Positions 22,987 through 51,018 of a stretch of 64,000 bases of DNA are shown piece by piece; the stretch's first letter is position 1; each line of letters starts with the position of its first letter. The position numbers and the translations under genes are program-made. Origin of the DNA: Rathayibacter sp. VKM Ac-2754 (GTDB lineage: Bacteria > Actinomycetota > Actinomycetes > Actinomycetales > Microbacteriaceae); assembly GCF_009807095.1 (NCBI RefSeq), contig NZ_WUCC01000009.1:62001-126000 (forward strand), written 5' to 3'. The notes under the pieces were generated by a model, which did no database searches, was not told the origin of the DNA, and was given only the letters and a program-made list of their open reading frames with translations.

Positions 22987-24387
22987 CGCGAACGTGAGCG
23001 AATGTCAGTGGTCGCTTGTCGACTGCTTCACATGGAGATGATCGGAACGGCGGAGGCGGCGCCCGCGGAGGCAGTGCCTGCAGAGGCGGTGCTCGCAGCA
23101 GTGCGCGAGTGCGGTGACGGTGTTGCGGGCGAGGACCGCGCGATGGCGCCGCGGCTGCTCGCGACGGCCGAGCGCCTGTATGCGGGGCATCGCAGGGCGC
23201 TCGAGGCTCAGGAGTCGTTCGCGCGGGGGCTGCGCCTGTCGCGGAGCGAGGCGAACGACCTCGCCGAGCGCTCGATCCGGGCCGAGCTGGCCGTCGCCCT
23301 GGGCACGTCGGAGTGGGCCGTGTCGCGCCGACTCGAGCACGCGCAGCTGCTCGTCGAGGACCTCCCGCTCACCCGCGCCGCTCTGGCGGGCGCGCGGATC
23401 CTCTGGCAGTCCGGCGAGCTGATCTGCCGGACCGCCTCGACCCTCCCGCCCGAATCGCGCGCCGCACTCGACGAGCGTGCCGCCGATGCAGCCCTCACGA
23501 TGACGCCGACGCAGCTGCGACGCGCGCTCGCGCGGTGGCGGGAGCAGCTGCACGAGCAGCCGCTCACCCAGCGCCACGCCCGCGCACGCGAGGACCGCGC
23601 GGTATGGCTCACGCCGGAGGTCGACGGGATGGCGACGCTGACCGCCTGCCTTCCGGCTCCGGCCGCTCTCGGCGCCTACCACCGCCTCGACCGGATCGCC
23701 CGGAGTCTCCGCGACGGCGACGACGGGCCTGGGGACGAGCGCACCCTCGCGCAGCTTCGGGCCGACGCCCTCGCCGATCTGCTCTGCGACGGCGACATCA
23801 CCGGCACCACGCCCGTCTCCGACGAGCAGGCCCCCGCGCCGACCTTCGTTCCCGGGGTGCGCGCGGAGGTTCGACTCACGCTGCCCGCGACGACGGCCGC
23901 CGGCCTCGATGACGCCGCCGCCGACCTCGACGGGTACGGCCCGATCCCCGCCGACGTCGCCCGTGCACTGGTCGATCGCGGGGCGTCCTTCACTCGAGTC
24001 CTCACCGACCCGGTCACACGGACCGTCGCCTCCGTCGGGCGCACCCACCGCATCCCGCCGGCACAGATGCGGCTACACCTCCAGCTGCGGGACCAGACCT
24101 GCCGCTTCCCCGGCTGCACCCGCCCCGCCGCCACGTCGGAGGCCGACCACACGATCGAGTGGCGCAACGGCGGCGAGACGGCGCTCGAGAACCTCGCGTC
24201 GCTCTGCACCGGCCACCACCACGTCCGTCACGGCGACCGGTGGACCTACGTCCTGCATCCCGACGGCACCGCCGATTGGACCACCCCGACCGGACGCCGC
24301 GTCACCACCCGACCACCCGCGCTCCCCGGCAGCCCACCCGGCCCGCCGATGCGACCCCGCTTCACCGACGCACCACCACCGTTCTGA
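22987..24387 (+). repeat. Long direct repeat, left copy (DUF222-HNH gene and upstream tag)
   Basis: Matches 49650-51018 in the same orientation. A 29-bp upstream tag ending in TCAGTGGTCGCT is shared. After a divergent start region, the block 23182-24311 matches 49813-50942 with a constant offset of 26631 bp and no difference that I could see. The 3' end then diverges again. Confidence 0.9.
23032..24387 (+). CDS. DUF222 / HNH endonuclease domain protein, copy 1
   Basis: A 451-residue member of the 13E12-repeat family. The helical DUF222 region fills about 30-330. The HNH nuclease follows at about 355-400, with CRFPGCTRP (Cys357), SEADHTIEWRNGGET, NLASLCTGHHHVRHGDRWTY. Biological role is unknown; the family is multicopy in actinobacteria. 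The ATG at 23032 is the start shared with copy 2, where the upstream alternative is closed by a stop. Copy 1 has 10 extra N-terminal residues from an in-frame 15-bp duplication (PAEAV twice, 23062-23091). From 23182 to 24311 it appears identical to copy 2 in DNA. Confidence 0.9.
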   Translation: MEMIGTAEAAPAEAVPAEAVLAAVRECGDGVAGEDRAMAPRLLATAERLYAGHRRALEAQESFARGLRLSRSEANDLAERSIRAELAVALGTSEWAVSRRLEHAQLLVEDLPLTRAALAGARILWQSGELICRTASTLPPESRAALDERAADAALTMTPTQLRRALARWREQLHEQPLTQRHARAREDRAVWLTPEVDGMATLTACLPAPAALGAYHRLDRIARSLRDGDDGPGDERTLAQLRADALADLLCDGDITGTTPVSDEQAPAPTFVPGVRAEVRLTLPATTAAGLDDAAADLDGYGPIPADVARALVDRGASFTRVLTDPVTRTVASVGRTHRIPPAQMRLHLQLRDQTCRFPGCTRPAATSEADHTIEWRNGGETALENLASLCTGHHHVRHGDRWTYVLHPDGTADWTTPTGRRVTTRPPALPGSPPGPPMRPRFTDAPPPF

Positions 24388-24407
24388 GGACACCGCCCAG
24401 CGACAGG

Positions 24408-24490
24408 ATCGGCGGCCCCGAGGCACTCCGATTCGCGCTGCACTCCTCCGACGACCCTTGTCCCGACCTCGACCACGAGGACCACCGCGG
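24408..24490 (+). pseudogene. Decayed N-terminal fragment of a GrpB family gene
   Basis: The +3 frame here reads IGGPEALRFALHSSDD followed by P-x-L and HEDHR. It aligns with the start of the intact GrpB protein at 52469, which has LIGGREALRVGLHPSDD, P-x-L and EQHRRR. About 27 codons can be recognised, beginning 20 bp after the HNH copy 1 stop. The conserved GSTSVPGLAAKPIIDI core is absent, so only a remnant remains. Confidence 0.65.
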
Positions 24491-24567: not shown

Positions 24568-24605
24568 CCGCCCTCCGCCGTCCACCGGAGGGCGGTGGGT
24601 TTCGC
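24568..24605 (+). terminator. Rho-independent terminator
   Basis: Perfect 10-bp stem CCGCCCTCCG / CGGAGGGCGG (24568-24577 and 24586-24595) with an 8-base loop and a T-rich tail (GGGTTTCGCATTTG). It closes transcription from the HNH copy 1 region. The 400-bp gap 24388-24787 otherwise holds the GrpB remnant and the promoter of the next operon. Confidence 0.75.
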
Positions 24606-24669
24606 ATTTGTTTCGCCGAAGTTACAGAACACGCGTATCAGCAAATCCGATCCGAAGGATGCCTCGCCA

Positions 24670-24706
24670 CTATTTGCCCGGCCGCCGTGCCTGCCTCCAG
24701 GATGAG
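24670..24706 (+). promoter_or_regulatory. Promoter of the NitT/TauT-type importer, motif shared with 41108-41144
   Basis: CTATTTGCC (24670-24678), 18 bp, then CCAGGATGAG (24697-24706). Read as -35 TTGCCC (24674-24679) and -10 CAGGAT (24698-24703) with an 18-bp spacer. The same two blocks at the same spacing precede the flavin monooxygenase operon. The start codon follows about 80 bp later. Confidence 0.6.
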
Positions 24707-24787
24707 CACCACTCCGCTCCGCATGTCCCGTGTTCCGGGGCCGGACGGCACCCCACCCCCGCGCGTCCTTCATCCCGAGGAGATCCC

Positions 24788-25795
24788 ATGGTCCACCGCA
24801 GAAGCACCATCGGCATGACAGCACTCGCCCTCGGCGCAGTCGTCGCCCTCTCGGGATGCGCCGGCGCCGGGTCCGGAGACTCCGACAGCGAGCTGACTCC
24901 CTTCACGCTCGGACTCAACTCCTGGACCGGCTACGGGCCCTGGTACATCGCCCAGGACCAGGGGTACTTCGAAGACGCCGGCATCGACCTCGAACTGCTC
25001 CTCTACAACGAGGCCGACTACGTCTCCCTCGCATCGACCGGCCAGGTCGACGGCATGAACCACTCGATCAACGACTGGCTCGTCAACGTCGGCGATCACG
25101 GCTACGAGCTCGTGCTCCTCGAAGACGTCAGCCTCACCGCTGACGCCATGCTCGGCAGCGAGGGCGTCGACTCGGTCGAGGACCTCGTCGGCGGCAAGGT
25201 CGCCTTCGGGTACGGCGGGGTCAGCGCACTCGTCTACTACGACGCTCTCGCCAAGAACGACATCGACCCCGCCGGCATCGAGACCGTCAACCTCGAGCCC
25301 GCCGACGCCGGGAACGCCATGATCGCCGGCCAGGTGCCCGCCGCTGTGACGTACGAGCCCTACGTCTCGACCGTCCTCGCCTCCGATCCCGACGCGAAGA
25401 TCATCTACTCGGCCGGCGAGACACCCGGCCTGATCAGCGACGGCCTCTTCGTCGACCCGGACTACGCCGCCGAGAACCCTGACGTCGTCGAGGGGCTCGC
25501 CGACGCCTGGGGCCGATCGATCGCCTTCATCGAGGAGAACCCTGACGAGGCGAAGGACATCATCGGCGAGGCCATCGGCATCCCGTCCGACCAGCGCGAG
25601 GACATGTTCGAGGGCCTCGAGTTCTACTCCCTCGAGGACAGCCAGGAGATGCTCGCCCCCGAGGGAGCCTTCCTCACCGAGACCCTCCCCTCGATCCAGG
25701 CCGCGATGATCGCCGCCGGGATCATCGACAGCGAGGTCGAGCTCTCGGACGGCGCCGTGTCGACCTCCTGGGTCGACGCCGCGCTCGAGGACTGA
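24788..25795 (+). CDS. NitT/TauT-type ABC substrate-binding lipoprotein
   Basis: A 335-residue SsuA/THI5-like binding protein. The signal peptide ends in lipobox LSGC (Cys24). The family pattern is LGLNSWTGYGPWYIAQDQGY near residue 41, then VDGMNHSINDWL, GGKVAFGYGGVSALVYYDAL and VPAAVTYEPYVS. Relatives bind nitrate, sulfonates, taurine or pyrimidine precursors; the ligand here is not determined. GAGGAG precedes the ATG. It is the first gene of a three-gene importer operon. Confidence 0.9.
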   Translation: MVHRRSTIGMTALALGAVVALSGCAGAGSGDSDSELTPFTLGLNSWTGYGPWYIAQDQGYFEDAGIDLELLLYNEADYVSLASTGQVDGMNHSINDWLVNVGDHGYELVLLEDVSLTADAMLGSEGVDSVEDLVGGKVAFGYGGVSALVYYDALAKNDIDPAGIETVNLEPADAGNAMIAGQVPAAVTYEPYVSTVLASDPDAKIIYSAGETPGLISDGLFVDPDYAAENPDVVEGLADAWGRSIAFIEENPDEAKDIIGEAIGIPSDQREDMFEGLEFYSLEDSQEMLAPEGAFLTETLPSIQAAMIAAGIIDSEVELSDGAVSTSWVDAALED

Positions 25796-25820
25796 GCCGA
25801 GAGGACTGAGCCGAGAGGAC
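25787..25820 (+). repeat. 14-bp tandem duplication over the binding-protein stop codon
   Basis: GAGGACTGAGCCGA is repeated at 25787-25800 and 25801-25814, with a partial third unit to 25820. The first copy contains the TGA stop of the binding-protein gene; the partial copy supplies the GAGAGGA ribosome site of the permease. Confidence 0.85.
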
Positions 25821-25824
25821 ACCC

Positions 25825-26688
25825 ATGATCGACACCGCCGCACCGCCTCGCAGCGCGACCCCGACCGCCGTGATCCGGAGGAGGCGTCGGCGACTGCCGG
25901 CACCGCTCCGGCTGGACGGCAGCATCACCCGCTCGCAGTCGCTCCTCGCGTCGATCGGCGGCTTCGTCCTCCTGCTCGCGATCTGGGCCGGCGCCTCCGC
26001 TTCCGGCCTCCTGAACGAGGCTCTCGTACCCGGCCCGGTCGCCGTCGCCGCCCGCACGATCGAGCAGGTCGCGAGCGGAGAGATCTGGGGCGACATCGGC
26101 ATCTCGTTCGCGCGGATCCTCGCGGCCTTCGCCCTCGCCGCGGTGATGGCGGTGCCGCTGGGCATCGTCATGGCCCGGGTGCGCGTCGTCGAGGCCATGC
26201 TGCTGCCGCTGTCGGAGTTCATCCGCTACATGCCGGTCGTGGCCTTCCTGCCCCTCTCGATCGTCTGGTTCGGCGTCGAGGAGAGCCAGAAGCTCTTCAT
26301 CATCTGGATGGGCACGTTCTTCTCGCTGCTGCTCATGGTCGTCGACGACACCCGGCGGGTCCCCCGGGAGCTCGTCGAGATCGGCCGCACCTTCGGCATG
26401 AGCGACACCCGCGTCTTCCTGCGCATCGTCTGGCGATCGGCGCTCCCCGGCATCTGGGACTCGCTCCGCCTCGCCATGGGCTGGTGCTGGACCTGGCTGC
26501 TCGTCGCCGAGATCATCGCGGCGGAGTCGGGACTCGGCTACCGCATCACCCTCGCGCGCCGATTCCTCGACACCGAGCTGATCATCGGCTACATCATCGT
26601 GCTCGGCCTGCTCGGGCTCATCCTCGACCAGCTGTTCCGCCTCACCGGCCGACGGCTGTTCGCCTACCTCGGGAAGGGTCGGTCATGA
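25825..26688 (+). CDS. NitT/TauT-type ABC permease
   Basis: A 287-residue SsuC/TauC-like permease. A basic N-terminus (RRRRRRLPAP) precedes six hydrophobic segments, beginning with SIGGFVLLLAIWAGASASGL. The coupling helix is in RTFGMSDTRVFLRIVWRSAL. It probably works as a homodimer. The ATG lies 29 bp after the preceding stop behind GAGAGGA, and the stop overlaps the ATPase start by 4 bp. Confidence 0.9.
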   Translation: MIDTAAPPRSATPTAVIRRRRRRLPAPLRLDGSITRSQSLLASIGGFVLLLAIWAGASASGLLNEALVPGPVAVAARTIEQVASGEIWGDIGISFARILAAFALAAVMAVPLGIVMARVRVVEAMLLPLSEFIRYMPVVAFLPLSIVWFGVEESQKLFIIWMGTFFSLLLMVVDDTRRVPRELVEIGRTFGMSDTRVFLRIVWRSALPGIWDSLRLAMGWCWTWLLVAEIIAAESGLGYRITLARRFLDTELIIGYIIVLGLLGLILDQLFRLTGRRLFAYLGKGRS

Positions 26689-27464
26689 CCATCGAGTTCT
26701 CCGGCGTCGGTGTGCGCTTCGGCACGAGATCGGATCCGTTCTGGGCTCTGCGCGGTGCCGATCTGACCATCGGCGACAACGAGTTCCTCTCGGTCGTCGG
26801 CACTTCGGGCTGCGGGAAGAGCACCCTGCTCTCGACAGCGGCCGGTCTGCAGGACGCCAGCGAGGGCACCGTCCTCGTCGACGGCGTGCCCGTGGACGGC
26901 CCGGGCCGTGATCGCGGAGTCGTCTTCCAGAGCTACACGCTGCTGCCGTGGCTGACCGCCGCCGGCAACATCGACTTCGCCCTGCGCGAGGCCGGTGTCG
27001 CTCGAGTGGAGCGACGGGCACGGGTCGACGAGATGCTGGACGCCGTGGGCCTGCGCGCCTTCGCCGACCGCTACCCGGCCGAGCTCTCCGGCGGCATGCG
27101 GCAGCGGGTCGCGATCGCCCGCGTGCTCTCGTACCGCCCGTCGATCCTCCTGATGGACGAGCCCTTCGGCGCCCTCGACGCCCTGACCCGCCGCCTGATG
27201 CAGGAGCTGCTGGTCAAGATCTGGGAGCAGTCGAAGCTCACCGTGCTCTTCATCACGCACGACATCCACGAGGCGGTGTTCCTCTCGGATCGCGTGATGG
27301 TCATGACGAACCGACCAGGCCGAGTGAAGACCGAGATCCCGATCGACCTGCCCAGGCCCCGAGACCACGACGTGCTGCGCAGCCCGGAGTTCGCGGCTCT
27401 CGAGGAGGAGGTGCTCGACGAGATCCGCTCGGAGACGCTCCAGGTGGAGCACATGGCCTCCTGA
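26685..27464 (+). CDS. NitT/TauT-type ABC ATP-binding protein
   Basis: A 259-residue ATPase of the SsuB/TauB group. Walker A GTSGCGKST, Q-loop VVFQSYTLLPW, signature ELSGGMRQRVA, Walker B ILLMDEPFGALD and switch FITHDIHEAVFL are all intact. It energises the permease at 25825. Transcription ends at the strong stem-loop 27475-27521. Confidence 0.92.
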   Translation: MTIEFSGVGVRFGTRSDPFWALRGADLTIGDNEFLSVVGTSGCGKSTLLSTAAGLQDASEGTVLVDGVPVDGPGRDRGVVFQSYTLLPWLTAAGNIDFALREAGVARVERRARVDEMLDAVGLRAFADRYPAELSGGMRQRVAIARVLSYRPSILLMDEPFGALDALTRRLMQELLVKIWEQSKLTVLFITHDIHEAVFLSDRVMVMTNRPGRVKTEIPIDLPRPRDHDVLRSPEFAALEEEVLDEIRSETLQVEHMAS

Positions 27465-27474
27465 CTCCGTCCTC

Positions 27475-27521
27475 GGCGAGGAAGGGCGCCCCGGCTCAGG
27501 CCGAGGCGCCCTTTCCTCGCC
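27475..27521. terminator. Strong bidirectional terminator
   Basis: Arms 27475-27490 and 27505-27521 (ending GGGCGCC and starting GGCGCCC) form a 16-bp near-perfect stem with one extra A, around a 14-base loop. The A-rich and T-rich stem ends suit both the importer operon (+) and the convergent kinase gene (-). Confidence 0.75.
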
Positions 27522-27540
27522 TTCAGGACTCGCCTCGCGT

Positions 27541-28848
27541 TCAGGACTCGATGCGCGCCAGGAAGTCGGCGACCGGGTCGGTGCCCGACACCGGCTCGGC
27601 ACCGCACTGCACGATCATCGCGAAGGCGAGCGCGCTCGTGAGCGGGGTGTGACCTCCGGCTCCCCCGGCCCGCACATCGCGCACGAGGAGCGGGCAGAGC
27701 ATCAGCGCCAGCCGCACGATGCGCTTCCAGTGCGCCGGCAGCAGGCTCCGCTCCTCGAGCGCGGCGACCAGCGGCCGCCAGGTGCGCTCGGCACGGGAGA
27801 CGAGCAGCGCGGCGCGCAGGGGGGTGAGCGACCAGTCGCGCTCGACGACGAGCACGCCGTCCTCCAGCCGGACGGAGGCGCCGAAGCGCTCCTCGGCGAG
27901 CGCGGGCTCGTAGAGCCAGAGCGGGTGCGCGAGGGAGTTGTGGAACGTCGCCTTGACCTCGGCGAGCAGAGCGGGCACGTGACGGCCCGCGAAAGCCGGG
28001 TCGAACGCGACGAGCGGGTGCGTGTCCCCTTCCGTCGTGAACCAGATGTTGGCGTTGTGGTCGTCGCCGTGCGCCACGACCCCGCCGAAGGGAGCGAGCG
28101 CGGCCGGATCGAGCATCTCGGCGGCCTCGTCGAGCAGCTCGGCGAGAGTCCGGTCGTAGTCGACGCCGTCGATGCGCCAGCGGAGGCCGAGCAGCCGCTC
28201 CCAGCTGAGCTCGACCGCCTCCTCGCCCTCGCCGAGCGCGAGATCGCGGCCCCCGTAGTAGGCGGCGATGCGGCCGCCACGACCGGGTGCCGCACCGGGG
28301 CTCGTGAGCCGGTGGTGGAAGAGCTGGTGGATCGGCTCGGCAGCGCTCTGCTCGACGGTGACGGGATGCAGGGAGTCGACGAGGATGCGGGCGGCCCGCT
28401 CGTCGCGATCGGCCTGCGCGGCGAGTATCACGGCGTCGCGCTCCGCCCCCGTCTCGCCGAGATCGTTCGCGCGGGCGACGTCGGCCAGCCGCGGCTCCTC
28501 CCGGAGCGCGTAGAGCAGGATCTGCCGACCCGGCTCACCGTTCGCGAAGACCGGCAGGTCGACGAGGTAGCCGTGCTCGCGCAGGAGCTCGGCGTTGTAG
28601 TACTCGGCGATCGTCCCGTCCTCGCCCTCCTCGCTGTGGAACTTGTAGAAGTAGCGGGATCCGTCGGCGAGAGCCGCGCGACCGTTGACGGAGTTGAGGC
28701 TGTACTGATCGAGCGTGAGCACGAGCTCGACGACGTCCTGGCCGGTCACCTCGGCGACCAGCGTGCGGATGAGAGCGGCCGCGCCCTCCTCATCGCCTGC
28801 TCTGGCGAGATCGCGGGCGCGGGTGGCGAGCGGGTCGTTCGCGGTCAT
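27541..28848 (-). CDS. Putative kinase of the aminoglycoside phosphotransferase-like fold
   Basis: A 435-residue protein of unassigned function. VVAHGDDHNANIWF matches the HGDxxxxN catalytic loop of APH/choline-kinase-type small-molecule kinases, and LVAFDPAF about 15 residues later fits the metal-binding aspartate. An N-lobe with DGSRYFYKFHSEEGED could hold the ATP lysine. The ATG follows AAGGAG. It is divergent from the dehydrogenase operon at 28986 across 137 bp, so it may phosphorylate a substrate or product of that pathway. No close family is recognised. Confidence 0.6.
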   Translation of the reverse strand: MTANDPLATRARDLARAGDEEGAAALIRTLVAEVTGQDVVELVLTLDQYSLNSVNGRAALADGSRYFYKFHSEEGEDGTIAEYYNAELLREHGYLVDLPVFANGEPGRQILLYALREEPRLADVARANDLGETGAERDAVILAAQADRDERAARILVDSLHPVTVEQSAAEPIHQLFHHRLTSPGAAPGRGGRIAAYYGGRDLALGEGEEAVELSWERLLGLRWRIDGVDYDRTLAELLDEAAEMLDPAALAPFGGVVAHGDDHNANIWFTTEGDTHPLVAFDPAFAGRHVPALLAEVKATFHNSLAHPLWLYEPALAEERFGASVRLEDGVLVVERDWSLTPLRAALLVSRAERTWRPLVAALEERSLLPAHWKRIVRLALMLCPLLVRDVRAGGAGGHTPLTSALAFAMIVQCGAEPVSGTDPVADFLARIES

Positions 28849-28923
28849 GGCTCTCCTTCATCGTGGCGTGCTCCTCAAGGCTCCTGCGGCCGGGGCCGGA
28901 CGCGCGATCGTGAGCTGCGTCGA

Positions 28924-28941
28924 TGTCTGAGATCTGGGACA
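28924..28941. promoter_or_regulatory. Imperfect palindrome upstream of the HisD-type operon
   Basis: TGTCTGAGATCTGGGACA, centred on AGATCT with TGTC/GACA ends. It lies about 45 bp before the zinc dehydrogenase ATG and 75 bp before the divergent kinase ATG. It is 14/18 identical to the site at 47824-47841 before the ThDP gene. The IclR protein encoded at 33313 is the obvious candidate binder. Confidence 0.5.
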
Positions 28942-28985
28942 CTCGCCCTCCCCCGCCGACCGGCCCCGGCGGAGCGGGCGTTTGA

Positions 28986-29969
28986 ATGGGAGATGTGACC
29001 CCGATGCCGACAGCGTGCAGAGTGAACCGCGATCTCACCCTCGAGATCGCCGAGGCGAGTCCTGCTCCGATGGGTGTCGCTGAGGTCCGCGTCCGGCCCG
29101 CCTACGCCGGAGTCTGCGGCTCGGATCTGCACGCGGCGCGGACGGGCGCGTGGATCGAGTACTGGCCCGCGACGCTCGGCCACGAGGTCGCCGCGGTCGT
29201 CGTGGACTCCTCGGTCGAGACCTGGGTCGCCGGCGACCGGGTCGTCGTCGACTCGCGGATCCCCTGCCGCGCCTGCGCGGACTGCGCCGTCTCGCCCCGC
29301 TTCTGCTCCCACCTCACCTGGCTGGGCGAGTCGCGGCCCGGCGGCTTCGCCACCGACCTCGTCGTCCCCGCCACGAGTCTGCACGCCGTGCCCAGCGGCC
29401 TCCCGCTCGATGTCGCCGCGCTCGCCGAACCGCTCGCCGTCGTCCTGCGCGCCCTCGATGCGCTGCCCACCGGGGTCGAGCGGGTGCTCGTGCAGGGCTA
29501 CGGCCCCATCGGCGCGCTCGCCCACCGCGTGCTCGCCTCCCGGGGGGTGGGGGTGAGCGTCACCGAGGCGCGTCAGGATCGACGGGAGCTCGCTGCGGCG
29601 CGCGGGGCGGAGCCGCTCGCCCGGGTCGACGCGGTGATCGACGCCGCCGGCTTCCCGGGCTCCGTGCTCGCAGCCGTGAAGGCCGTCCGCCGCGGCGGCA
29701 CCGTCCTGGTCGTGGCTCTCGGACCGCACTCGATCGACCTCGTCGCCCAGGACCTCGTCGAGCAGGGAGTGCAGATCGCCACCTCTCTCGGCTTCGACGA
29801 CGGCGACCTCCCGCGCGCGCTCGCCACCCTCGCCGCCGACCCGGAGGGCTTCGCCTCGGTGATCTCCACTCGCATCCCGCTCGACGAGCTGCCCGCCGTG
29901 CTCTCGGGCCGCGCCGACACCCTCGGCAAGCTCGTCGTCGCCTGCGCCCCCGAGGAGTCCGCCGCGTGA
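28986..29969 (+). CDS. Zinc-dependent medium-chain alcohol dehydrogenase
   Basis: A 327-residue MDR dehydrogenase. Catalytic zinc ligands are in VCGSDLH and LGHEV. The structural zinc lobe is IPCRACADCAVSPRFC, and the Rossmann motif is VQGYGPIGALA. The cofactor domain is shorter than in typical 345-residue members. The start may be the ATG at 28986 or an in-frame ATG at 29004, which has GGGAGA at better spacing. It is the first gene of the operon with the SDR, HisD-like and FMN enzymes. A polyol or 2-hydroxy compound is the likely substrate. Confidence 0.85.
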   Translation: MGDVTPMPTACRVNRDLTLEIAEASPAPMGVAEVRVRPAYAGVCGSDLHAARTGAWIEYWPATLGHEVAAVVVDSSVETWVAGDRVVVDSRIPCRACADCAVSPRFCSHLTWLGESRPGGFATDLVVPATSLHAVPSGLPLDVAALAEPLAVVLRALDALPTGVERVLVQGYGPIGALAHRVLASRGVGVSVTEARQDRRELAAARGAEPLARVDAVIDAAGFPGSVLAAVKAVRRGGTVLVVALGPHSIDLVAQDLVEQGVQIATSLGFDDGDLPRALATLAADPEGFASVISTRIPLDELPAVLSGRADTLGKLVVACAPEESAA

Positions 29970-30688
29970 GCCGCCGCTACCTGATCACGGGCGGCACGAG
30001 CGGGATCGGCTCCGCCGTCGCCCGGCACCTGACAGCCTCAGGACACCGGGTCTGGATCACCGGGACGTCCGAGCGCACCCTCGGTGCCGCGCTCGGCGAC
30101 GGAGTCGCCCTCGGCGGATCCGTCGTGGACGTGACCGATCGCGACGCCGTGGACGCAGCCTTCGCGGCAGCGGTCGACGAGCTCGACGGTCTCGACGGCG
30201 TCTTCTCGAACGCGGGCGTCGACGGCGAGGGGAAGCCCGCCGAGCAGCTCGACCCGGATCTCTTCCGCCGCGTGCTCGACGTCAACGTCGTCGGCGGCCT
30301 GCACGTCGCCCAGGCCGCGCACCGCACTCTCACGAGGCCGGGATCGCTCGTGATCAACGCCTCCGTGAACGCCGTGCGGCCGGAGGCGCACTTCGCCGAC
30401 TACAACGCGAGCAAGGCCGCCGCCCTCTCGCTCGCCAGGTCGCTCGCACTCGAGTGGAGCGCCGAGGGACTGTCGGTGACGGCGGTCTGCCCGGGGTACT
30501 TCCCGTCGCGGATGACCGCGCCCTACCTCGGCGATCCGCAGATCGCCCAGGAGCTGCTCGAGCTCATCCCCGCGAACCGCTTCGGTCGGGAACGGGAGAT
30601 CGGCGCCCTGCTCGAGTTCCTGCTCGGCCCCGACGCCGGCTACCTGACCGGCTCCGCCATCACCGTCGACGGCGGCCGCAGCATCTGA
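29966..30688 (+). CDS. SDR family oxidoreductase
   Basis: A 240-residue SDR with TGGTSGIG (about 8-15), SNAGVDG, the INASVNA serine and the YNASK catalytic pair, closing with LTGSAITVDGG. The GTG overlaps the zinc dehydrogenase stop by 4 bp. Two different alcohol dehydrogenases side by side could interconvert both enantiomers of one alcohol through a ketone, as HpsO and HpsP do for dihydroxypropanesulfonate; this is inference. Confidence 0.87.
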   Translation: MSRRYLITGGTSGIGSAVARHLTASGHRVWITGTSERTLGAALGDGVALGGSVVDVTDRDAVDAAFAAAVDELDGLDGVFSNAGVDGEGKPAEQLDPDLFRRVLDVNVVGGLHVAQAAHRTLTRPGSLVINASVNAVRPEAHFADYNASKAAALSLARSLALEWSAEGLSVTAVCPGYFPSRMTAPYLGDPQIAQELLELIPANRFGREREIGALLEFLLGPDAGYLTGSAITVDGGRSI

Positions 30689-30725
30689 CGCCGCACGACC
30701 CCACCCGACGAACCCGAGGAGAACC

Positions 30726-32066: not shown

Positions 32067-32069
32067 GCC

Positions 32070-40997: not shown

Positions 40998-41036
40998 GCG
41001 TGTCTCCTTCCGACCGACCGGCGAGGGCCGCTGCGC

Positions 41037-41091: not shown

Positions 41092-41107
41092 TCACGATAC
41101 TCGAACG

Positions 41108-41144: not shown

Positions 41145-41236
41145 TGCGCAGGGCGCTGGGCCAGGCAGCGCGACAGATCAGGACGCGACCTCACAGGGGG
41201 CCCGCGCCGTGAGCCGCAGCATCGAAGTGGAGCCCC

Positions 41237-42948: not shown

Positions 42949-43619
42949 CCGTCTCGCTGGTCGCCCGCGACCCCCTGACCGGAGCGCTCGGCATGGTCGT
43001 GAGCTCGTCGAGCCCCGCCGTCGCCGCACGCTGCCTGCACCTGCGCGCGGGCGTCGGCGCGGTCGCGTCGCAGAACGTGACCAATCCCGCGCTGGGCACC
43101 GCGCTGCTCGACGCACTCGAGGCGGGCGTCGACTCCGCGACCGCGCTCGCGGCCGTTCTCGCCGATGAGGCGTTCCCGCAGTACCGCCAGCTCCTCCTCG
43201 TCGACGCGTCCGGACGGACCGCCCTCCACTCGGGCGACCGGGCACTCGGGCTCCACTCGGCCGTCCAGGGCTCGTCCGCCGCCGCGGCCGGCAATCTGCT
43301 CGCTCACGACGGCGTTCCCGGCGCCATGCTCTCGGCCTTCCACGCGAGCACGGGGTCGACCCTGGAAGAACGTCTGCTCGACGCTCTGCGCGGCGCGATC
43401 GAGGCGGGCGGCGAGGCGGGCCCGGTCCGCTCCGCGGGACTCGCCGTCGTCGAGGACGTGCCGTGGCGGGTCACCGACCTGCGCGTCGACGACGCCGACG
43501 ACCCGGTCACCGAGCTCGAGCGCCTGCTGGGCGTCTGGCTCCCGCAGAAGCTCGACTACCGCCGTCGCGCCCTCGACCCCGAGGCCGCACCCTCGTACGG
43601 CGTGCCGGGCGACGAGTGA
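42945..43619 (+). CDS. DUF1028 family protein (Ntn-hydrolase-like)
   Basis: A 224-residue DUF1028 protein. The family start is clear: TVSLVARDPLTGALGMVVSS, AVAARCLHLRAGVGAVASQN and NPALGTALLDALEAG. It continues with QGSSAAAAGNLLAHDGV and a C-terminal LRVDDADDPVTELERLL. The fold is thought to be Ntn-hydrolase-like, and no reaction is established. DUF1028 genes often accompany RidA and M20 hydrolase genes in catabolic operons. It overlaps ridA and the M20 gene by 4 bp each. Confidence 0.85.
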   Translation: MTVSLVARDPLTGALGMVVSSSSPAVAARCLHLRAGVGAVASQNVTNPALGTALLDALEAGVDSATALAAVLADEAFPQYRQLLLVDASGRTALHSGDRALGLHSAVQGSSAAAAGNLLAHDGVPGAMLSAFHASTGSTLEERLLDALRGAIEAGGEAGPVRSAGLAVVEDVPWRVTDLRVDDADDPVTELERLLGVWLPQKLDYRRRALDPEAAPSYGVPGDE

Positions 43620-44779
43620 GCGCCTCCGACCGCAAGCGGCGCGTCGCGGCTCACGTCGACGCGGGGCTCGACGTGCTCCTGCGGATCAGCCACCGTCTGC
43701 ACGCGGAGCCCGAGACGGCCTGGCGGGAGCACGCGTCGGCGGCGCTGCTCGCCGAGGCGCTCGAGGAGCGCGGCTTCCGGGTGGAGCGAGGCGCCGCCGG
43801 ACTCGAGACGGCCTTCACCGCCGATCACGGGCCCCGCGACGGACGCCCGGTCGTCGGGATCGTCGCCGAGTACGACGCCCTGCCGGGGCTCGGTCACGCC
43901 TGCGGGCACAACGTCATCGCCGCGGCCGCGATCGGCGCCGCCGCGGCCCTCGCCGACGCCGGAGTCGCCGTGCGTCTCCTCGGCACTCCGGCCGAGGAGG
44001 GCGGGGGCGGCAAGATCGCGATGCTCGAGGCCGGATGCTTCGACTCCCTCGCGCTCGCCATGATGATCCACCCCGGCCCCGCCGACGCGGTGTACGCGCG
44101 ACCCCGCGCCGTCGCGCACTTCGACGTGCGCTACCGCGGCGCCACCGCGCACGCCGGCGCCTACCCGCACCTCGGCCGCAACGCAGCGGACGCCTTCACG
44201 ATCGCCCAGGTCGCGATCGGACTCCTCCGGCAGCAGCTGCCGACGTCGATCCGCGTGCACGGCATCGTCACGGCCGCCGGCACCGCCCCCAATGCCGTCC
44301 CCGACCTCGCCGAGGGATCCTGGTACGTCCGCGCCGACGACCTGGCCGAGCTCGACGACGTCTTCCCCCGGGTGCGGGCCTGCTTCGAGGCGGGTGCCCT
44401 GGCCGCAGGCGTCGAGTGGGAGCTCACGGAGACGAGCCCCCGCTACGCCGAGTTCCGCAACGACGACCGGCTCGCCGAGCTCTTCGCCGCGAACGCCGCC
44501 GCCGTCGGCCGCGACATGGACCTGGACGAGGCCGGCCCGCGCGGCATGGCCACGGCCTCCACCGACATGGGCAACGTCTCGCAGCGGATCCGCGCCCTCC
44601 ACCCCTACCTCGGCATCGCCTCGCTCCCGTCGGTCAACCACCAGCCGGCGTTCGCCGCCGCCGCCGCGACGCCCGCCGCCGACCGCGCAGTGCGGGACGG
44701 CGCCGTGCTGCTCGCCCAGACCGCGATCGACGCCCTCGAGAACCCGCACCACCAGGAGGACCACCATGCGCACCCGTGA
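43616..44779 (+). CDS. M20 family amidohydrolase (AbgB/aminoacylase-like)
   Basis: A 387-residue metallo-amidase. Metal and catalytic elements are GLGHACGHN, LGTPAEEGGGGKIAM and MMIHPG, followed by the lid domain with GATAHAGAYPHLGRNA and STDMGNVS near the C-terminus. The pattern is that of p-aminobenzoyl-glutamate hydrolase subunit B and related N-acyl amino acid hydrolases. It probably cleaves an amide intermediate of the pathway. It starts at GTG 43616 and its last 14 bp overlap the ALDH gene. Confidence 0.85.
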   Translation: MSASDRKRRVAAHVDAGLDVLLRISHRLHAEPETAWREHASAALLAEALEERGFRVERGAAGLETAFTADHGPRDGRPVVGIVAEYDALPGLGHACGHNVIAAAAIGAAAALADAGVAVRLLGTPAEEGGGGKIAMLEAGCFDSLALAMMIHPGPADAVYARPRAVAHFDVRYRGATAHAGAYPHLGRNAADAFTIAQVAIGLLRQQLPTSIRVHGIVTAAGTAPNAVPDLAEGSWYVRADDLAELDDVFPRVRACFEAGALAAGVEWELTETSPRYAEFRNDDRLAELFAANAAAVGRDMDLDEAGPRGMATASTDMGNVSQRIRALHPYLGIASLPSVNHQPAFAAAAATPAADRAVRDGAVLLAQTAIDALENPHHQEDHHAHP

Positions 44780-46262
44780 GGACTGGGCTCGACTCGCCCG
44801 CTCGATCGAGCCCCGCCGCCGTGCCTTCATCGACGGATCGCCCGTCGACGCCGCCGACGGCGGCACCTTCGACACCCTCGACCCCGCGACCGGTCTCGTG
44901 CTCGCGAGCGTCGCCCGGGGCGGAGCCGAGGACATCGACCGCGCCGTCGCCGCCGCGCGCCGCGCCTTCTCGGCCGGATCGTGGTCGCGCAGCGCTCCGG
45001 CGCACCGCAAGGCCGTCCTGCTGCGCCTCGCAGACCTCGTCCGCACCCACGCCGACGAGCTCGCGCTGCTCGACACTCTCGACGGCGGCAAGCTCATCGC
45101 CGACACGTCGACCGTCGACATCCCCGGCTCCGCGCACATCCTCCAGTGGTACGCCGAGGCGATCGACAAGCAGTACGGCGAGGTCGCGCCGACCGCTCCC
45201 GGCGATCTCGCGATCATCACCCGCGAGCCGCTCGGCGTGATCGGCGCGGTCGTCCCCTGGAACTACCCGCTCGAGATGGCGATCTGGAAGCTCGCTCCCG
45301 CTCTCGCCGCCGGGAACAGCGTCGTGCTGAAGCCCGCTGAGGAGTCGCCGCTCTCGGCGCTGCGGCTCGCCGAGCTCGCGATCGAAGCGGGCCTGCCGGA
45401 CGGTGTGCTCAACGTCGTACCCGGGCTCGGCGACGAGGCGGGGCAGGCGCTCGGCCGGCATTCCGACGTCGATGCGATCGCCTTCACCGGCTCCACGGCC
45501 GTCGGCAGGCTCTTCCTGCGCTACGCGGGCGAGTCCAACATGAAGCAGGTCTGGCTCGAGGCCGGCGGCAAGAGCGCCGGCCTCGTCTTCGCCGACGCCG
45601 CCGATCTCGACCTCGTCGCCGACAGAGCGGTCGCGGGGATCTTCGGATGCTCGGGCCAGGTCTGCTCGGCCAACTCCCGCCTCCTCGTCGAGGCCCGCAT
45701 CGCCGACGAGCTCCTCGAGCGGATCCGCCTCCGCGCCGCCGCTCTGCGCGTCGGCGATCCCCTCGACCCCGCGTCGACCATGGGTCCGCTCATCAGCGCG
45801 AAGCAGCTCGAACGCGTCCAGCGCTACGTGGACATCGGCCGCAGCGAGGCCGGACTCGCCTTCGGCGGAGGCCGACTGCATCTCGAGTCCGGCGGCTACT
45901 ACCTCGAGCCCACGGCCTTCCGGGACGTGCCCGCCGGCGCGGTGATCGAGCGGGAGGAGCTCTTCGGCCCGCTGCTCGCCGTCTCGACGTTCACCGAGGA
46001 GTCCGAGGCGATCGCGCGGGCGAATGCGAGCGAGTTCGGACTCGCCGCCTCGGTCTTCACCGACAGTCTCTCCCGCGCCCGACGGGTCGCGTCGGCGCTG
46101 CAGGCGGGTACCGTCTCGGTCAACACGGTCGACGCACTCGACGTCACCGTTCCGTTCGGCGGAGTGAAGCAGTCGGGCTTCGGACGCGATCTGTCGCTGC
46201 ACGCTCTCGACAAGTTCACGTCGCTCAAGACCACCTGGTTCGCCGGGCCCTCGGAGGGATGA
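44766..46262 (+). CDS. NAD-dependent aldehyde dehydrogenase
   Basis: A 498-residue ALDH of the betaine-aldehyde/gamma-glutamyl-aminobutyraldehyde dehydrogenase type. It shows VVPWNYPLEMAIWKLAPALA, GSTAVGRLF, catalytic Glu265 in WLEAGGKSAG, nucleophile Cys300 in GQVCSANSR, and EELFGPLLAVSTF. It oxidises an aldehyde to the acid with NAD+. Its ATG lies inside the end of the M20 gene, and its stop overlaps the GMC gene by 4 bp, so the three are translationally coupled. Confidence 0.92.
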   Translation: MRTREDWARLARSIEPRRRAFIDGSPVDAADGGTFDTLDPATGLVLASVARGGAEDIDRAVAAARRAFSAGSWSRSAPAHRKAVLLRLADLVRTHADELALLDTLDGGKLIADTSTVDIPGSAHILQWYAEAIDKQYGEVAPTAPGDLAIITREPLGVIGAVVPWNYPLEMAIWKLAPALAAGNSVVLKPAEESPLSALRLAELAIEAGLPDGVLNVVPGLGDEAGQALGRHSDVDAIAFTGSTAVGRLFLRYAGESNMKQVWLEAGGKSAGLVFADAADLDLVADRAVAGIFGCSGQVCSANSRLLVEARIADELLERIRLRAAALRVGDPLDPASTMGPLISAKQLERVQRYVDIGRSEAGLAFGGGRLHLESGGYYLEPTAFRDVPAGAVIEREELFGPLLAVSTFTEESEAIARANASEFGLAASVFTDSLSRARRVASALQAGTVSVNTVDALDVTVPFGGVKQSGFGRDLSLHALDKFTSLKTTWFAGPSEG

Positions 46263-47815
46263 CCATGGCCTACGACACTCCGGATCTCGTCGACGTCCTC
46301 GTCCTCGGCGGCGGCACCGCCGGCATCATCGTCGCCTCGCGCCTCAGCGAGGACCCGTCGCTCAGCGTCGGCCTCGTCGAAGCGGGCCCCTCCGACGCGG
46401 ACGAGCCCCGCGCGAACTCGATCCGCCGCTGGGCCGAGATGCTCGAGGGCGAGTACGACCTCGACTACCGCAGCGTGCCGAACGCGCGGGGCAACTCCTT
46501 CATCCGCCAGTCCCGGCTCCGGATCCTCGGCGGCTGCTCGACGGCGAACACGATGATCACGTGGCGCCCGCTCCGCGGCGACATGGACGAGTGGGTCTCG
46601 CTCGGCGCCGACGGCTGGGACTACGAGACCATGTCGGCGACGTACGACCGGCTCCTGGCACCCGTCACGCCCATCCCGCCCGAGGACCGCAACCCGTACC
46701 TGCAGGGCGTGATCGACGCCGTCGTCTCGGCCCTCGGCGTCGACGAGAAGCCCTCCTGGAACGATCACGAGTTCGTCCAGGGCGCCGGCTACTTCGAGAT
46801 CGGCTACGACCCCGCGACGAATCAGCGGTCCTCCGCCTCGCACAGCTACCTGCGACTCCACGGCGCCGAGCACCGACCGAATCTGCACATCACCCTCGAC
46901 GGACTCGTCGTGCGTGTGATCGTGGAGGACGGTCGCGCGGTCGGTGCGCTCGTTCGCACCCCCGACGGTGTCCGGGAGCTGCGCGCGCGCCGCGAGGTCG
47001 TACTCTCGTGCGGCGCCATCGACAGTCCCGCCCTGCTGCAGCGCTCAGGCATCGGACCTCGGGCCGTCCTCGAGGCAGCGGGCGTGCCGGTGCACGTCGA
47101 CCTTCCCGGTGTCGGCGAGAACCTGCAGGACCACGCGGAGGGTCTGGTCGTCTGGGAGGCGCGCACCGAGCGCCCCCCGATCAGCGCGACCGGCTGGGAC
47201 GCGGGCTACGTCATCGCGATCGACCCCGACAGCACCCTGCCCGACGTCTCGACGCACATCCCGCTCGAGACCTGGGGCGTGCACGCCGAGCGAGCCGGCT
47301 TCACGCTTCCGGAGGGCAGCATCTCGCTCGTCCCCAACGTCGCCAAGCCGCGCAGCCGCGGGCGGGTGTGGATCACCTCGGCCGACCCGGATGCCGCCCC
47401 GTCGATCGACTACAACTCCTTCAGCGACCCGGCGGGCCGCGATGAGCGGATGCTCGTGGCGGGCGCCCGTCGTGCCCGGATGGTCGCGCAGCACGAACCG
47501 CTCGCCTCCCTGATCGTGCGCGAGGTGTTCCCCGGCCCCGACGCGCAGACGGACGAGGAGCTCTCGGCCGCGCTCCGCGCCACGCACCAGACCGTCTACC
47601 ACGTCTCGTGCACGGCCAGGATGGGCGCCGACGCCGACCCGCTCGCGGTGCTCGACCCCCGTCTCCGGGTCCGCGGCGTGACGGGGCTGCGCGTCGTCGA
47701 CGCCTCCTCGTTCCCGACGATCCCCGCGCTCAACCCGGTCGGCGTCGTCATGACGCTCGCCGAGCGCGCGGCCGAGCTCATCCGGGACGATCTCGCGGCA
47801 CCGCCCACCGGGTGA
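46259..47815 (+). CDS. GMC family FAD alcohol oxidoreductase (choline dehydrogenase-like)
   Basis: A 518-residue GMC protein. The FAD motif VLVLGGGTAGIIVASRLSED is at about 13-32, GMC signature 1 lies around RILGGCSTANTMITWRP, and signature 2 is SCGAIDSPALLQRSGIG. Active-site residues lie in YHVSCTARMG and IPALNPVGVVMTLAE. It would oxidise an alcohol to the aldehyde used by the upstream ALDH. The ATG at 46259 overlaps the ALDH stop; an ATG at 46265 is an alternative start. Confidence 0.9.
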   Translation: MTMAYDTPDLVDVLVLGGGTAGIIVASRLSEDPSLSVGLVEAGPSDADEPRANSIRRWAEMLEGEYDLDYRSVPNARGNSFIRQSRLRILGGCSTANTMITWRPLRGDMDEWVSLGADGWDYETMSATYDRLLAPVTPIPPEDRNPYLQGVIDAVVSALGVDEKPSWNDHEFVQGAGYFEIGYDPATNQRSSASHSYLRLHGAEHRPNLHITLDGLVVRVIVEDGRAVGALVRTPDGVRELRARREVVLSCGAIDSPALLQRSGIGPRAVLEAAGVPVHVDLPGVGENLQDHAEGLVVWEARTERPPISATGWDAGYVIAIDPDSTLPDVSTHIPLETWGVHAERAGFTLPEGSISLVPNVAKPRSRGRVWITSADPDAAPSIDYNSFSDPAGRDERMLVAGARRARMVAQHEPLASLIVREVFPGPDAQTDEELSAALRATHQTVYHVSCTARMGADADPLAVLDPRLRVRGVTGLRVVDASSFPTIPALNPVGVVMTLAERAAELIRDDLAAPPTG

Positions 47816-47823
47816 CCTCCGAC

Positions 47824-47841
47824 TGTCTGCGATCTCAGACG
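47824..47841. promoter_or_regulatory. Palindrome upstream of the ThDP enzyme gene
   Basis: TGTCTGCGATCTCAGACG, with perfect arms GTCTG and CAGAC. It lies between the GMC stop and the ThDP start and matches the site at 28924-28941 in 14 of 18 positions. It suggests that the ThDP gene has its own control, shared with the HisD-type operon. Confidence 0.5.
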
Positions 47842-47894
47842 GAGGAGCATCGCCGGCTGCGCCCGCGTCCGCCGGAGAGGCTTTGCTGAATGCC

Positions 47895-49577
47895 ATGACT
47901 GATCGAGCCGACGCCCCCACCCCCACCGTCGCGGAGGCCGTCGCGGACGTCGTCGCACAGCGGAGCCCGGTCGTGTTCGGCCTCATGGGCAACGGCAATG
48001 CGCACTTCATGGCGAGCCTCACCGGCCGCGGCCACCGGGTCGTGACGGTGCGGCACGAGACCGCCACCGTCATCGCCGCGCACAGCTACACCCTCGCGGG
48101 CGGCGCGATCGCCGCGGCGACCGCGACCTACGGCGCGGGATTCACCAACCTCCTCACCTCCCTCGCCGAAGCGCGTCTCGCCCGCATCCCCGCGGTCGTC
48201 GTCGTGGGCGACGCGCCTCGCACCGGGCCGCGCCCGCAGGACATCGATCAGATCGGTGCGGCGGCCGCCGTCCACGTGCGGACGCTCGTCGTCGACCGAG
48301 GGAACGCCGTCGCACAGACCGAGCTCGCGTACGAGATCGCCCGCCGCGATCGCGTCCCCGTCATCGTCGCCCTGCCCTACGACCTCGTCGACGCACCTCT
48401 GACCTCCGCCGTCGAGGTGGCGCCGCTCGAGCAGGGCGCCGTGCTGCGCGCGCACGAGATCCCCGCCGCGCCCGCCGTCCCGGCCGAGGTGGCCGCCGGG
48501 ATCGCCGCGCGCCTGCTCGCCGCAGAGCGCCCCCTCGTCCTCGGCGGGTACGGCGCGGTGCTCGCCGGAGCCGGCGGCGCGCTGCGCGAGCTCGGAGACC
48601 GGGTCGGCGCACTGTTCGCGACCTCGCTGATGGCCCACGGGCTCTTCGAGTCGCCCTGGGACATCGGCATCGCGGGCGGATTCTCGACGGAGGAGGCCGC
48701 CGCGCTGATCGGCCGGGCGGACCTCGTCCTCGTCGTCGGCGCGAGCATGAACCTCTACCAGATGCGCTACAACGGCCTGATCGCCGCCGATTCCCACGTG
48801 ATCCAGATCGACACACTGGCCGCGGCGACGCACGACCGGGTCGACGAGTTCCACCGCGCGGACGCCCAGGACTTCGCGAGGACGCTCCTGGAGGCACTCC
48901 CCGCGACGCCGCTCGACGGGTGGCGTCACACCGCTGTGCTGCCCCGGCGCGGAGCCGAGGAGTTCCCGGAGTTCGCCGCCGACGGCCTCCTCGATCCGCG
49001 CCCCGTGATGGCCGCCCTCGACGGCATCCTCCCCGAGGCTCGGTCGATCACTCAGGACAACGGCCACTACATGGGCTGGGCGCCGCGCCATCTCCGCGCT
49101 CCCGACCCGCAGGCCATGCTCCTGCCCGGTCTCGCGCTGCAGTGCATCGGTCTCGGCATGGGCTCCCTCCTGGGCATCGCCGAGGTGCGGAACGACCGCC
49201 TGCCCGTCCTCGTCACCGGCGACGGAGGCCTCCTCATGGAGCTCAGCGAGCTCGACACCGTCGTGCGGGAGCTGCCGTCGGCGCTGATCGTGGTGATGAA
49301 CGACGCCGCGTTCAGCATGGAGGTGCACCAGTACGGAGTGCGCGGCCTGGACGTGTCGGCGATGAGGTTCGCGCGGGTCGACTTCGCCGCTCTGGGCCGC
49401 GCCATGGGAGCACAGGGGGCTCGGATCGAGTCACTGGCCGACCTCGAGGCCGTGCGCTCCTGGATCGAGGGAGGCGCCGAGGGCGTCTTCGTCGCGGACG
49501 TGGCGATCTCGCCCGCTGTCGTCGCGGACTGGCTGACGCTGAGCAATCGCTACAACGGGGTGCCCGCACCGGAGTGA
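47895..49577 (+). CDS. Thiamine diphosphate-dependent decarboxylase/synthase-like enzyme
   Basis: A 560-residue enzyme of the acetolactate synthase/benzoylformate decarboxylase fold. The PYR domain has the activating glutamate in TVRHETATVIAAHSYTLAGG. A middle domain follows, and the PP domain has the ThDP-magnesium motif GDGGLLMELSELD with the asparagine in VVMNDAAF. It would decarboxylate or ligate a 2-oxoacid. The start is uncertain: ATG 47895 or an in-frame TTG at 47883. It follows the GMC gene after 79 bp that hold the 47824 palindrome. Confidence 0.85.
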   Translation: MTDRADAPTPTVAEAVADVVAQRSPVVFGLMGNGNAHFMASLTGRGHRVVTVRHETATVIAAHSYTLAGGAIAAATATYGAGFTNLLTSLAEARLARIPAVVVVGDAPRTGPRPQDIDQIGAAAAVHVRTLVVDRGNAVAQTELAYEIARRDRVPVIVALPYDLVDAPLTSAVEVAPLEQGAVLRAHEIPAAPAVPAEVAAGIAARLLAAERPLVLGGYGAVLAGAGGALRELGDRVGALFATSLMAHGLFESPWDIGIAGGFSTEEAAALIGRADLVLVVGASMNLYQMRYNGLIAADSHVIQIDTLAAATHDRVDEFHRADAQDFARTLLEALPATPLDGWRHTAVLPRRGAEEFPEFAADGLLDPRPVMAALDGILPEARSITQDNGHYMGWAPRHLRAPDPQAMLLPGLALQCIGLGMGSLLGIAEVRNDRLPVLVTGDGGLLMELSELDTVVRELPSALIVVMNDAAFSMEVHQYGVRGLDVSAMRFARVDFAALGRAMGAQGARIESLADLEAVRSWIEGGAEGVFVADVAISPAVVADWLTLSNRYNGVPAPE

Positions 49578-49649
49578 TGCGCTGACCGGTGTCGACGGCC
49601 GTCTCCGGTCCTTCCTCCATGCCAGGCGCGCGGGGGTCAGCCTGACGGT

Positions 49650-51018
49650 GCGAACGTGAGCGAATGTCAGTGGTCGCTGATTAGCTTCTCGTATGGAGAT
49701 GATCGGAAGAGCGGACGCGGTACTCGCGGAGGTGCGGGAGTGCGGTGACGGTGTTGCGGGCGAGGACCGCGCGATGGCGCCGCGGCTGCTCGCCACGGCC
49801 GAGCGCCTCTACGCGGGGCATCGCAGGGCGCTCGAGGCTCAGGAGTCGTTCGCGCGGGGGCTGCGCCTGTCGCGGAGCGAGGCGAACGACCTCGCCGAGC
49901 GCTCGATCCGGGCCGAGCTGGCCGTCGCCCTGGGCACGTCGGAGTGGGCCGTGTCGCGCCGACTCGAGCACGCGCAGCTGCTCGTCGAGGACCTCCCGCT
50001 CACCCGCGCCGCTCTGGCGGGCGCGCGGATCCTCTGGCAGTCCGGCGAGCTGATCTGCCGGACCGCCTCGACCCTCCCGCCCGAATCGCGCGCCGCACTC
50101 GACGAGCGTGCCGCCGATGCAGCCCTCACGATGACGCCGACGCAGCTGCGACGCGCGCTCGCGCGGTGGCGGGAGCAGCTGCACGAGCAGCCGCTCACCC
50201 AGCGCCACGCCCGCGCACGCGAGGACCGCGCGGTATGGCTCACGCCGGAGGTCGACGGGATGGCGACGCTGACCGCCTGCCTTCCGGCTCCGGCCGCTCT
50301 CGGCGCCTACCACCGCCTCGACCGGATCGCCCGGAGTCTCCGCGACGGCGACGACGGGCCTGGGGACGAGCGCACCCTCGCGCAGCTTCGGGCCGACGCC
50401 CTCGCCGATCTGCTCTGCGACGGCGACATCACCGGCACCACGCCCGTCTCCGACGAGCAGGCCCCCGCGCCGACCTTCGTTCCCGGGGTGCGCGCGGAGG
50501 TTCGACTCACGCTGCCCGCGACGACGGCCGCCGGCCTCGATGACGCCGCCGCCGACCTCGACGGGTACGGCCCGATCCCCGCCGACGTCGCCCGTGCACT
50601 GGTCGATCGCGGGGCGTCCTTCACTCGAGTCCTCACCGACCCGGTCACACGGACCGTCGCCTCCGTCGGGCGCACCCACCGCATCCCGCCGGCACAGATG
50701 CGGCTACACCTCCAGCTGCGGGACCAGACCTGCCGCTTCCCCGGCTGCACCCGCCCCGCCGCCACGTCGGAGGCCGACCACACGATCGAGTGGCGCAACG
50801 GCGGCGAGACGGCGCTCGAGAACCTCGCGTCGCTCTGCACCGGCCACCACCACGTCCGTCACGGCGACCGGTGGACCTACGTCCTGCATCCCGACGGCAC
50901 CGCCGATTGGACCACCCCGACCGGACGCCGCGTCACCACCCGGCCACCCGCCCTCCCCGGCAGCCCACCCGGCCCACCACCCCGGCCCCGCTTCACCAAC
51001 GCGCCACCACCGTTCTGA
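49650..51018 (+). repeat. Long direct repeat, right copy (DUF222-HNH gene and upstream tag)
   Basis: Same orientation as 22987-24387. The upstream 29-bp tag is 49650-49678. The apparently identical core is 49813-50942, about 1130 bp. Flanks inside the gene differ at the first 40 codons and the last 25. Confidence 0.9.
49693..51018 (+). CDS. DUF222 / HNH endonuclease domain protein, copy 2
   Basis: A 441-residue twin of the 23032-24387 product. The N-terminus lacks the duplicated PAEAV pair, and the proline-rich C-terminus differs slightly (GPPPRPRFTNAPPPF). The HNH motif set is intact. A TAG stop at 49682 just upstream rules out the longer start that is open in copy 1. It lies 115 bp after the ThDP gene on the same strand, next to no partner that explains its function. 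Confidence 0.9.
   Translation: MEMIGRADAVLAEVRECGDGVAGEDRAMAPRLLATAERLYAGHRRALEAQESFARGLRLSRSEANDLAERSIRAELAVALGTSEWAVSRRLEHAQLLVEDLPLTRAALAGARILWQSGELICRTASTLPPESRAALDERAADAALTMTPTQLRRALARWREQLHEQPLTQRHARAREDRAVWLTPEVDGMATLTACLPAPAALGAYHRLDRIARSLRDGDDGPGDERTLAQLRADALADLLCDGDITGTTPVSDEQAPAPTFVPGVRAEVRLTLPATTAAGLDDAAADLDGYGPIPADVARALVDRGASFTRVLTDPVTRTVASVGRTHRIPPAQMRLHLQLRDQTCRFPGCTRPAATSEADHTIEWRNGGETALENLASLCTGHHHVRHGDRWTYVLHPDGTADWTTPTGRRVTTRPPALPGSPPGPPPRPRFTNAPPPF

Follow-up and report, generated by a model that had tools for sequence, protein, structure and literature searches.

The window analysed here, a 64,000-nucleotide stretch of the genome of Rathayibacter sp. VKM Ac-2754, contains a 26.6-kb segment of metabolic genes that is flanked by two copies of a DUF222-HNH gene, which we call copies A and B. 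We consider that homologous recombination through these HNH repeats probably inserted a catabolic gene cluster at this locus and that gene conversion homogenised the copies, a reading to which we assign a probability of roughly 0.62. The locus would at first have carried a single DUF222-HNH gene, like those of the relatives G004 and G007. A catabolic cluster with a patchy distribution in the family would then have arrived in the lineage joined to an HNH gene of Rathayibacter type resembling a third copy, C. Homologous recombination between the incoming and the resident HNH genes would have brought the cluster in, flanked at either side by an HNH copy, and gene conversion, at that time or later, would have made 1,130 bp identical in A and B. 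The incoming DNA was presumably a circle or its equivalent, and RecA-type recombination is the likely agent. Insertion, not loss, would then lie behind the difference in presence and absence among the relatives, and the repeats may still be able to delete the island.

Two HNH genes and the interval between them

Both copies lie on the forward strand. The homologous unit of copy A (22985-24388, with its open reading frame at 23032-24387) and that of copy B (49647-51019, with its open reading frame at 49693-51018) are 95.7% identical over 1,407 columns in blastn, beginning at a common leader about 40 bp 5′ of the start codon and ending at the common stop codon. Within these units, the core at 23182-24311 equals that at 49813-50942 at all 1,130 of 1,130 bases, with an offset of 26,631 bp, just as the sequence-only reading had noticed. 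Between the leader and the core the copies are separated by 19 single-base differences, a 1-base indel and a 30-base indel, and 10 further differences lie 3′ of the core. The same reading had described the ends and flanks as differing; the ends do differ and the DNA outside the units is unrelated between the two sides, but the ends are diverged homologues rather than unrelated sequence, and the unit is longer than had been noted. Within the leader, 24 bases are the same in A (22992-23015), B (49654-49677) and C. The identical core exceeds chance, because it is the longest identical tract among 785 within-genome pairs, of which the next longest measures only 269 bp; these pairs were drawn from 109 HNH copies in 8 of 15 genus genomes, the same 8 genomes holding 174 DUF222 matches, pieces included.

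The proteins of A and B both match Pfam DUF222 (PF02720; 79.4 and 79.9 bits, respectively, against a curated cut-off of 24.4) and, at the C-terminus, Pfam HNH (PF01844; 24.0 and 24.2 bits, cut-off 21.4). Residues C347, C352, D362, H363, N377, C382 and H385-387, which we take to have the catalytic roles of the HNH motif, are invariant in 15 aligned sequences. Copies B and C differ by 41 synonymous and 11 non-synonymous codon changes, and B and the G4 copy by 127 and 61; because the differences are mostly synonymous, they suggest that the protein has been maintained. The AlphaFold model had a mean pLDDT of 59, too low for a fold search, and a PDB sequence search was uninformative, its matches being mostly designed repeat proteins over the C-terminal stretch. 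PADLOC gave no matches, and matches in PHROGs were confined to the HNH part. These domains agree with the assignment to the 13E12 family that had been made from the sequence, and REP13E12/HNH/DUF222 stand together among the mycobacterial repetitive elements listed by DIVE (PMC10589994).

The interval between the copies (24389-49646) is occupied by a catabolic gene cluster, which extends from 24600 to 49577; at both limits collinearity with the homologues in other genera breaks off. Its first gene encodes an NMT1-type substrate-binding protein (24608-25795; PF09084) and its last a thiamine-diphosphate enzyme (47883-49577; PF02776, PF02775 and PF00205); between them lie, among others, genes for a histidinol-dehydrogenase-like protein (30726-32066; PF00815) and an FAD-dependent oxidoreductase or monooxygenase-like protein (41237-42529; PF13738 and others), all four on the forward strand. 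Pfam domains further indicate an NMT1-type ABC importer, SDR and zinc-type dehydrogenases, an FMN dehydrogenase, regulators of the IclR, ROK and LysR families, two further ABC permeases, a TIM-barrel isomerase-like protein, DUF1028, an M20 peptidase, an aldehyde dehydrogenase and a GMC oxidoreductase. The scan covered 40 open reading frames of the region, several of which had no match, some of these in overlapping frames; no integrase, transposase, relaxase or replication gene was among its matches. Base composition does not set the segment apart, its G+C content of 0.69-0.74 being similar to that of most of the flanks. The lowest value in the profiled part (12-64 kb) is 0.653, at 56-58 kb.

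What does this locus look like in close relatives? In G007, the left flank of copy A (window 18778-24417) leads to one HNH copy, which is followed by the right flank of copy B (52469-65988 in the extended contig). G004 likewise has a single HNH copy, which forms one continuous stretch with 49654-53017; to its left, homology picks up again at 18005 after a gap of 0.6 kb. The 26.6-kb segment is absent at the locus in both, which marks it as a genomic island in the sense of DNA missing in close relatives and bears out the suggestion that everything between the repeats could be present or absent. The resident left flank (18778-22984) is the DNA continuous with the single HNH copy of G007. On the right, 51020-53017, with an SDR gene (51106-51897) and a MarR gene (51987-52472) by Pfam, is common with G004 and continuous with its single copy; the part common with G007 (52469-64000, 91%) starts about 0.2 kb past the HNH match there and continues to 65988 in the extended contig. 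Because the locus is otherwise variable too, 18.0-22.9 kb being missing in G004 and 51.0-52.5 kb in G007, the ancestral state proposed here rests on these two genomes. The 8.7 kb at 53017-61770, to the right of the locus, is also missing in G004.

Mosaic ends and exchange among HNH copies

The relationship among A, B and C changes along the gene. We counted the sites at which two of these copies agree against the third, and took the copies of G4 and G7 as outgroups to polarise them. In the 5′ segment (161 sites), B agrees with C at 18 sites, whereas A agrees with B at one and with C at one; the derived states there number nine for B and C, one for A and C and none for A and B. In the core (1,130 sites), A and B agree at 49 sites, 15 of them derived, and the other pairings at none, either before or after polarisation. 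In the 3′ segment (65 sites), A and C agree at five sites, A and B at three, and B and C at none. Only one derived site there could be polarised, joining A and C, and a 12-bp insertion is common to A and B and missing in C, G4 and G7, which makes the grouping at the 3′ end weak. The island-facing ends, namely the 5′ end of B and, less clearly, the 3′ end of A, therefore seem to be C-like, and the chromosome-facing ends are not. If a resident gene had crossed over with an island-borne gene of the C type, C-like ends would be expected at these positions, and the identical core would then require conversion together with or after the crossover. An identity tract with conflicting groupings at its sides is the pattern of interlocus gene conversion, here with a weak 3′ side; the three different groupings favour the conversion that the sequence-only reading had offered as one of two possibilities.

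Is such exchange confined to this locus? The genome itself (G000; 3.97 Mb in 24 contigs) has 12 DUF222 matches, and all 15 genus genomes searched have between 2 and 32, so the family is multicopy and dispersed. Only one further copy in the genome is close to these two, namely C on contig C2, with DNA identities of 92% to A and 95% to B; the next closest copy reaches 78-79%. Among the 109 copies, identical tracts of at least 100 bp occur in 18 of 785 within-genome pairs, compared with 2 of 5,101 between-genome pairs. A shuffling test for such tracts, which 49 of the 785 pairs pass, was set aside: the shuffle ignores the uneven conservation along the gene, and even a 28-bp tract passes.

In the three genomes G000, G007 and G004, 50 copies were located, and 42 were given a positional orthologue from their flanks (from partial flanks only for the copy at C18:112k). 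Of these 42, 24 resemble a paralogue of the same genome more than the orthologue, and for the other 18 the orthologue is the nearer; for 17, the paralogue is closer by at least 5 points over the whole unit. In all 22 orthologue pairs compared, which represent 14 of 17 groups (all but A/B, F and H), identity in the HNH gene is below the flank average, with medians of 81.0% and 88.3%, respectively. The site of copy C is empty in G007, and the G004 copy there is 75-78% alike, while C is 92-95% alike to A and B. At the A/B locus, and at no other, the left and right flanks correspond to different copies. Taken together, these comparisons show concerted evolution of the HNH copies in the three genomes.

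Indels of at least 250 bp may also be concentrated beside the HNH genes. Across 59 flank comparisons, of which 57 span the whole first kilobase next to the gene, 27 such indels fall within that kilobase, compared with 18 in 234 comparison-bins at greater distance; a comparison that lacked homology and flanks shorter than 1.5 kb had been dropped. Because the comparisons overlap and are not independent, the A/B locus supplies four of the 27 and the intergenic position is a confounder, this is no more than a hint of a hotspot. Beside the copy at C18:112k (L028), a flank that lies 0.3 kb away in the present genome is about 9 kb from the corresponding HNH copy in G007 and G004, another indel near an HNH gene. 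Repeats with the pattern GATCGAGTAGCC...GGGCGTATCGAGATC lie 3′ of the C18 copy (L030, about 6550-7210) and have many matches in G007.

The upstream regions have features of their own. A leader containing TGTCGGTGGTC and reaching the CGTATG that includes the start codon precedes many HNH copies in the 8 genomes; within a 510-bp stretch for each copy, the best match to TGTCGGTGGTC is at least 9 of 11 in 99 of 109 copies, a raw count in which at least two of the printed matches lie elsewhere. A palindromic TCGAACGTGTGTTCGA box stands directly 5′ of the leader in two printed HNH loci of G009 (among L151-L157), and a degenerate version of it occupies the same position in A, B and C. Some 13E12 genes have been proposed to belong to a repair system under LexA control (PMC4181829). 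Here, a perfect GAAC-N4-GTTC box occurs upstream of 6 of 109 copies, against a shuffled mean of 0.4; with one mismatch allowed, however, the number is 8 against a shuffled mean of 10.2, so the LexA box is real in a few copies and is not a general control of the family.

Origin of the cluster and competing explanations

Where might the catabolic cluster have come from? With a 19-kb interval as the query, no orthologous block appeared in the 14 other genus genomes among the matches listed. G005 has two stretches of the island (25298-27392 and 40087-47778), rearranged and at a different locus (C2:6086-18228, L077), with 68-74% identity, and no HNH gene was found in the 40 kb around them. The end genes of the island were searched in a sample of 299 family genomes that included our own. 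The first gene has matches in 9 of the 299 at E 1e-60, close only in G085 (81%) and at most 43% elsewhere; the last has matches in 75 at E 1e-80, close only in G085 and G146 (83%) and at most 50% elsewhere. G085 and G146 belong to two other genera. The former contains the collinear blocks 24600-27509 (86.5%) and 36081-49577 (82.7%), whose inner ends are contig ends, and the latter contains 27482-34138 and 47887-49577 at 83-86%. No HNH gene was found beside these blocks in the 8, 20 and 38 kb compared. The B protein has no match in G085 and 37 matches in G146, the best at 42%, so that the genera of G085 and G146 are an unlikely source of the HNH bracket. The cluster is thus patchy across genera, and its HNH bracket is of Rathayibacter type.

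Seventeen plasmid records match the island, each over at most 7% of the query, and we set a plasmid origin aside. A phage origin, and with it a role of the HNH gene as a prophage attachment site, is not indicated either: copy A as query has no phage DNA match, and no integrase is among the Pfam matches of the scanned island frames. Integration at a tRNA gene can be discounted, since the window contains no tRNA. As regards a transposon, no transposase is among the Pfam matches of the scanned frames and no convincing duplication is seen at sites C, E and J; overlaps of 20 bp and 14 bp, seen where relatives lack C and E and considered as target-site duplications, are imperfect and chance-like.

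Several other histories must be weighed against integration through the HNH repeats. The island might be old at the locus, recombination between the HNH repeats having removed it from G004 and G007 and continuing gene conversion having kept A and B alike. Such a deletion would yield the same one-copy locus, and exchange of sequence between copies is common in the genus. Loss would, on the other hand, require two events, or one in a common ancestor, and it does not predict C-like island-facing ends; in addition, the absence of the island block among the matches listed in the 14 other genus genomes and the position of the closest homologues in other genera fit gain better. We regard loss as rather unlikely, though the donor junction that integration predicts (last island gene, HNH gene, first island gene) was not found. 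It is more improbable still that the arrangement is an assembly artefact in which a one-copy locus was misjoined, through the 1.13-kb repeat, to the island and a further HNH copy that in truth lie at another locus or on a molecule of their own. With 24 contigs the assembly is a draft, and the identical core may be longer than short reads; yet contig C24 (181,010 bp) extends well past both sides, a separate stable molecule is made less likely by the lack of a replication gene among the Pfam matches (several frames having no match), and a free circle would have arisen by this very recombination. The other possibility raised by the sequence-only reading, a plain recent duplication of the HNH gene with both ends changed later, would explain the identical core, but hardly 5′ ends that are 19 sites and a 30-bp indel apart beside a 1,130-bp core without a single difference, and the mosaic, in which B groups with C at the 5′ end, contradicts it; we give it very little credence. 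That reading thus held up in part: conversion, the family and the presence or absence of the interval found support, and duplication alone and the link to phage integration at this locus did not.

Might the HNH protein itself have been the driver? A nuclease that cuts unlike copies or the leader, followed by repair from a paralogue, would turn these genes into hotspots of both conversion and integration. The invariant HNH residues, the mostly synonymous differences, the 17 of 42 copies that are closer to a paralogue by at least 5 points, and the excess of large indels in the first kilobase (27, compared with 18 in the bins farther out) are all in line with this idea. Ordinary recombination between dispersed repeats is sufficient for the data, however; cleavage is a role predicted from sequence, the indel counts carry the overlap, the A/B contribution and the intergenic confounding described above, and the empty sites have no target duplication. 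We therefore consider it unlikely. With similarly little confidence, we speculate that the DUF222-HNH genes form a self-homogenising network of landing pads, in which a putative nuclease cuts unlike copies, repair from paralogues homogenises them and the same repair captures or moves adjacent gene clusters, so that a repeat family free of transposase and integrase would mobilise metabolic islands within the genus.

Comparison with known systems

Gene conversion within the DUF222-HNH family is already known, and an island bracketed by HNH genes with mosaic ends looks new. We did not meet such an island in the literature searched, mostly at the level of titles and abstracts, nor did we find there a paper joining Rathayibacter and HNH endonuclease, or one joining HNH endonuclease, Actinobacteria and concerted evolution. 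If HNH genes are hotspots of conversion and offer ready homology to foreign clusters, this would help to explain how metabolic islands can be gained and lost in the absence of an integrase, and mosaic ends would provide a way to find other such events in existing genomes.

In Campbell-type integration, foreign DNA enters by homologous recombination through IS copies or other multicopy genes. The locus described here resembles this process in its direct repeats around accessory DNA and its hybrid repeat ends; it differs in that the repeat is a nuclease gene, with no transposase or integrase among the Pfam matches. Homing endonucleases in general are described as spreading by recombination that converts the region around their gene (PMC3943268, PMC2988022). 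Free-standing HNH homing endonucleases, as portrayed in these sources, share with the present genes the HNH motif and a recombination-linked conversion around the gene; unlike them, the Rathayibacter genes have sites (C, E and J) that are empty in one or both relatives and show neither a clear target nor a duplication. A close parallel is offered by the REP13E12, or 13E12, repeats of Mycobacterium tuberculosis. A 2026 preprint reports 87 gene-conversion events in its REP13E12 regions, which it says contain a putative prophage attachment site and have no defined biological function (PMC13061034), and another preprint reports prophage insertions in rep13e12 (PMC12803068). As far as these accounts go, both groups belong to the DUF222-HNH family, are multicopy and dispersed, and undergo gene conversion between copies. 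Unlike the mycobacterial repeats, two of the Rathayibacter copies bracket a catabolic island, and no prophage was seen there.
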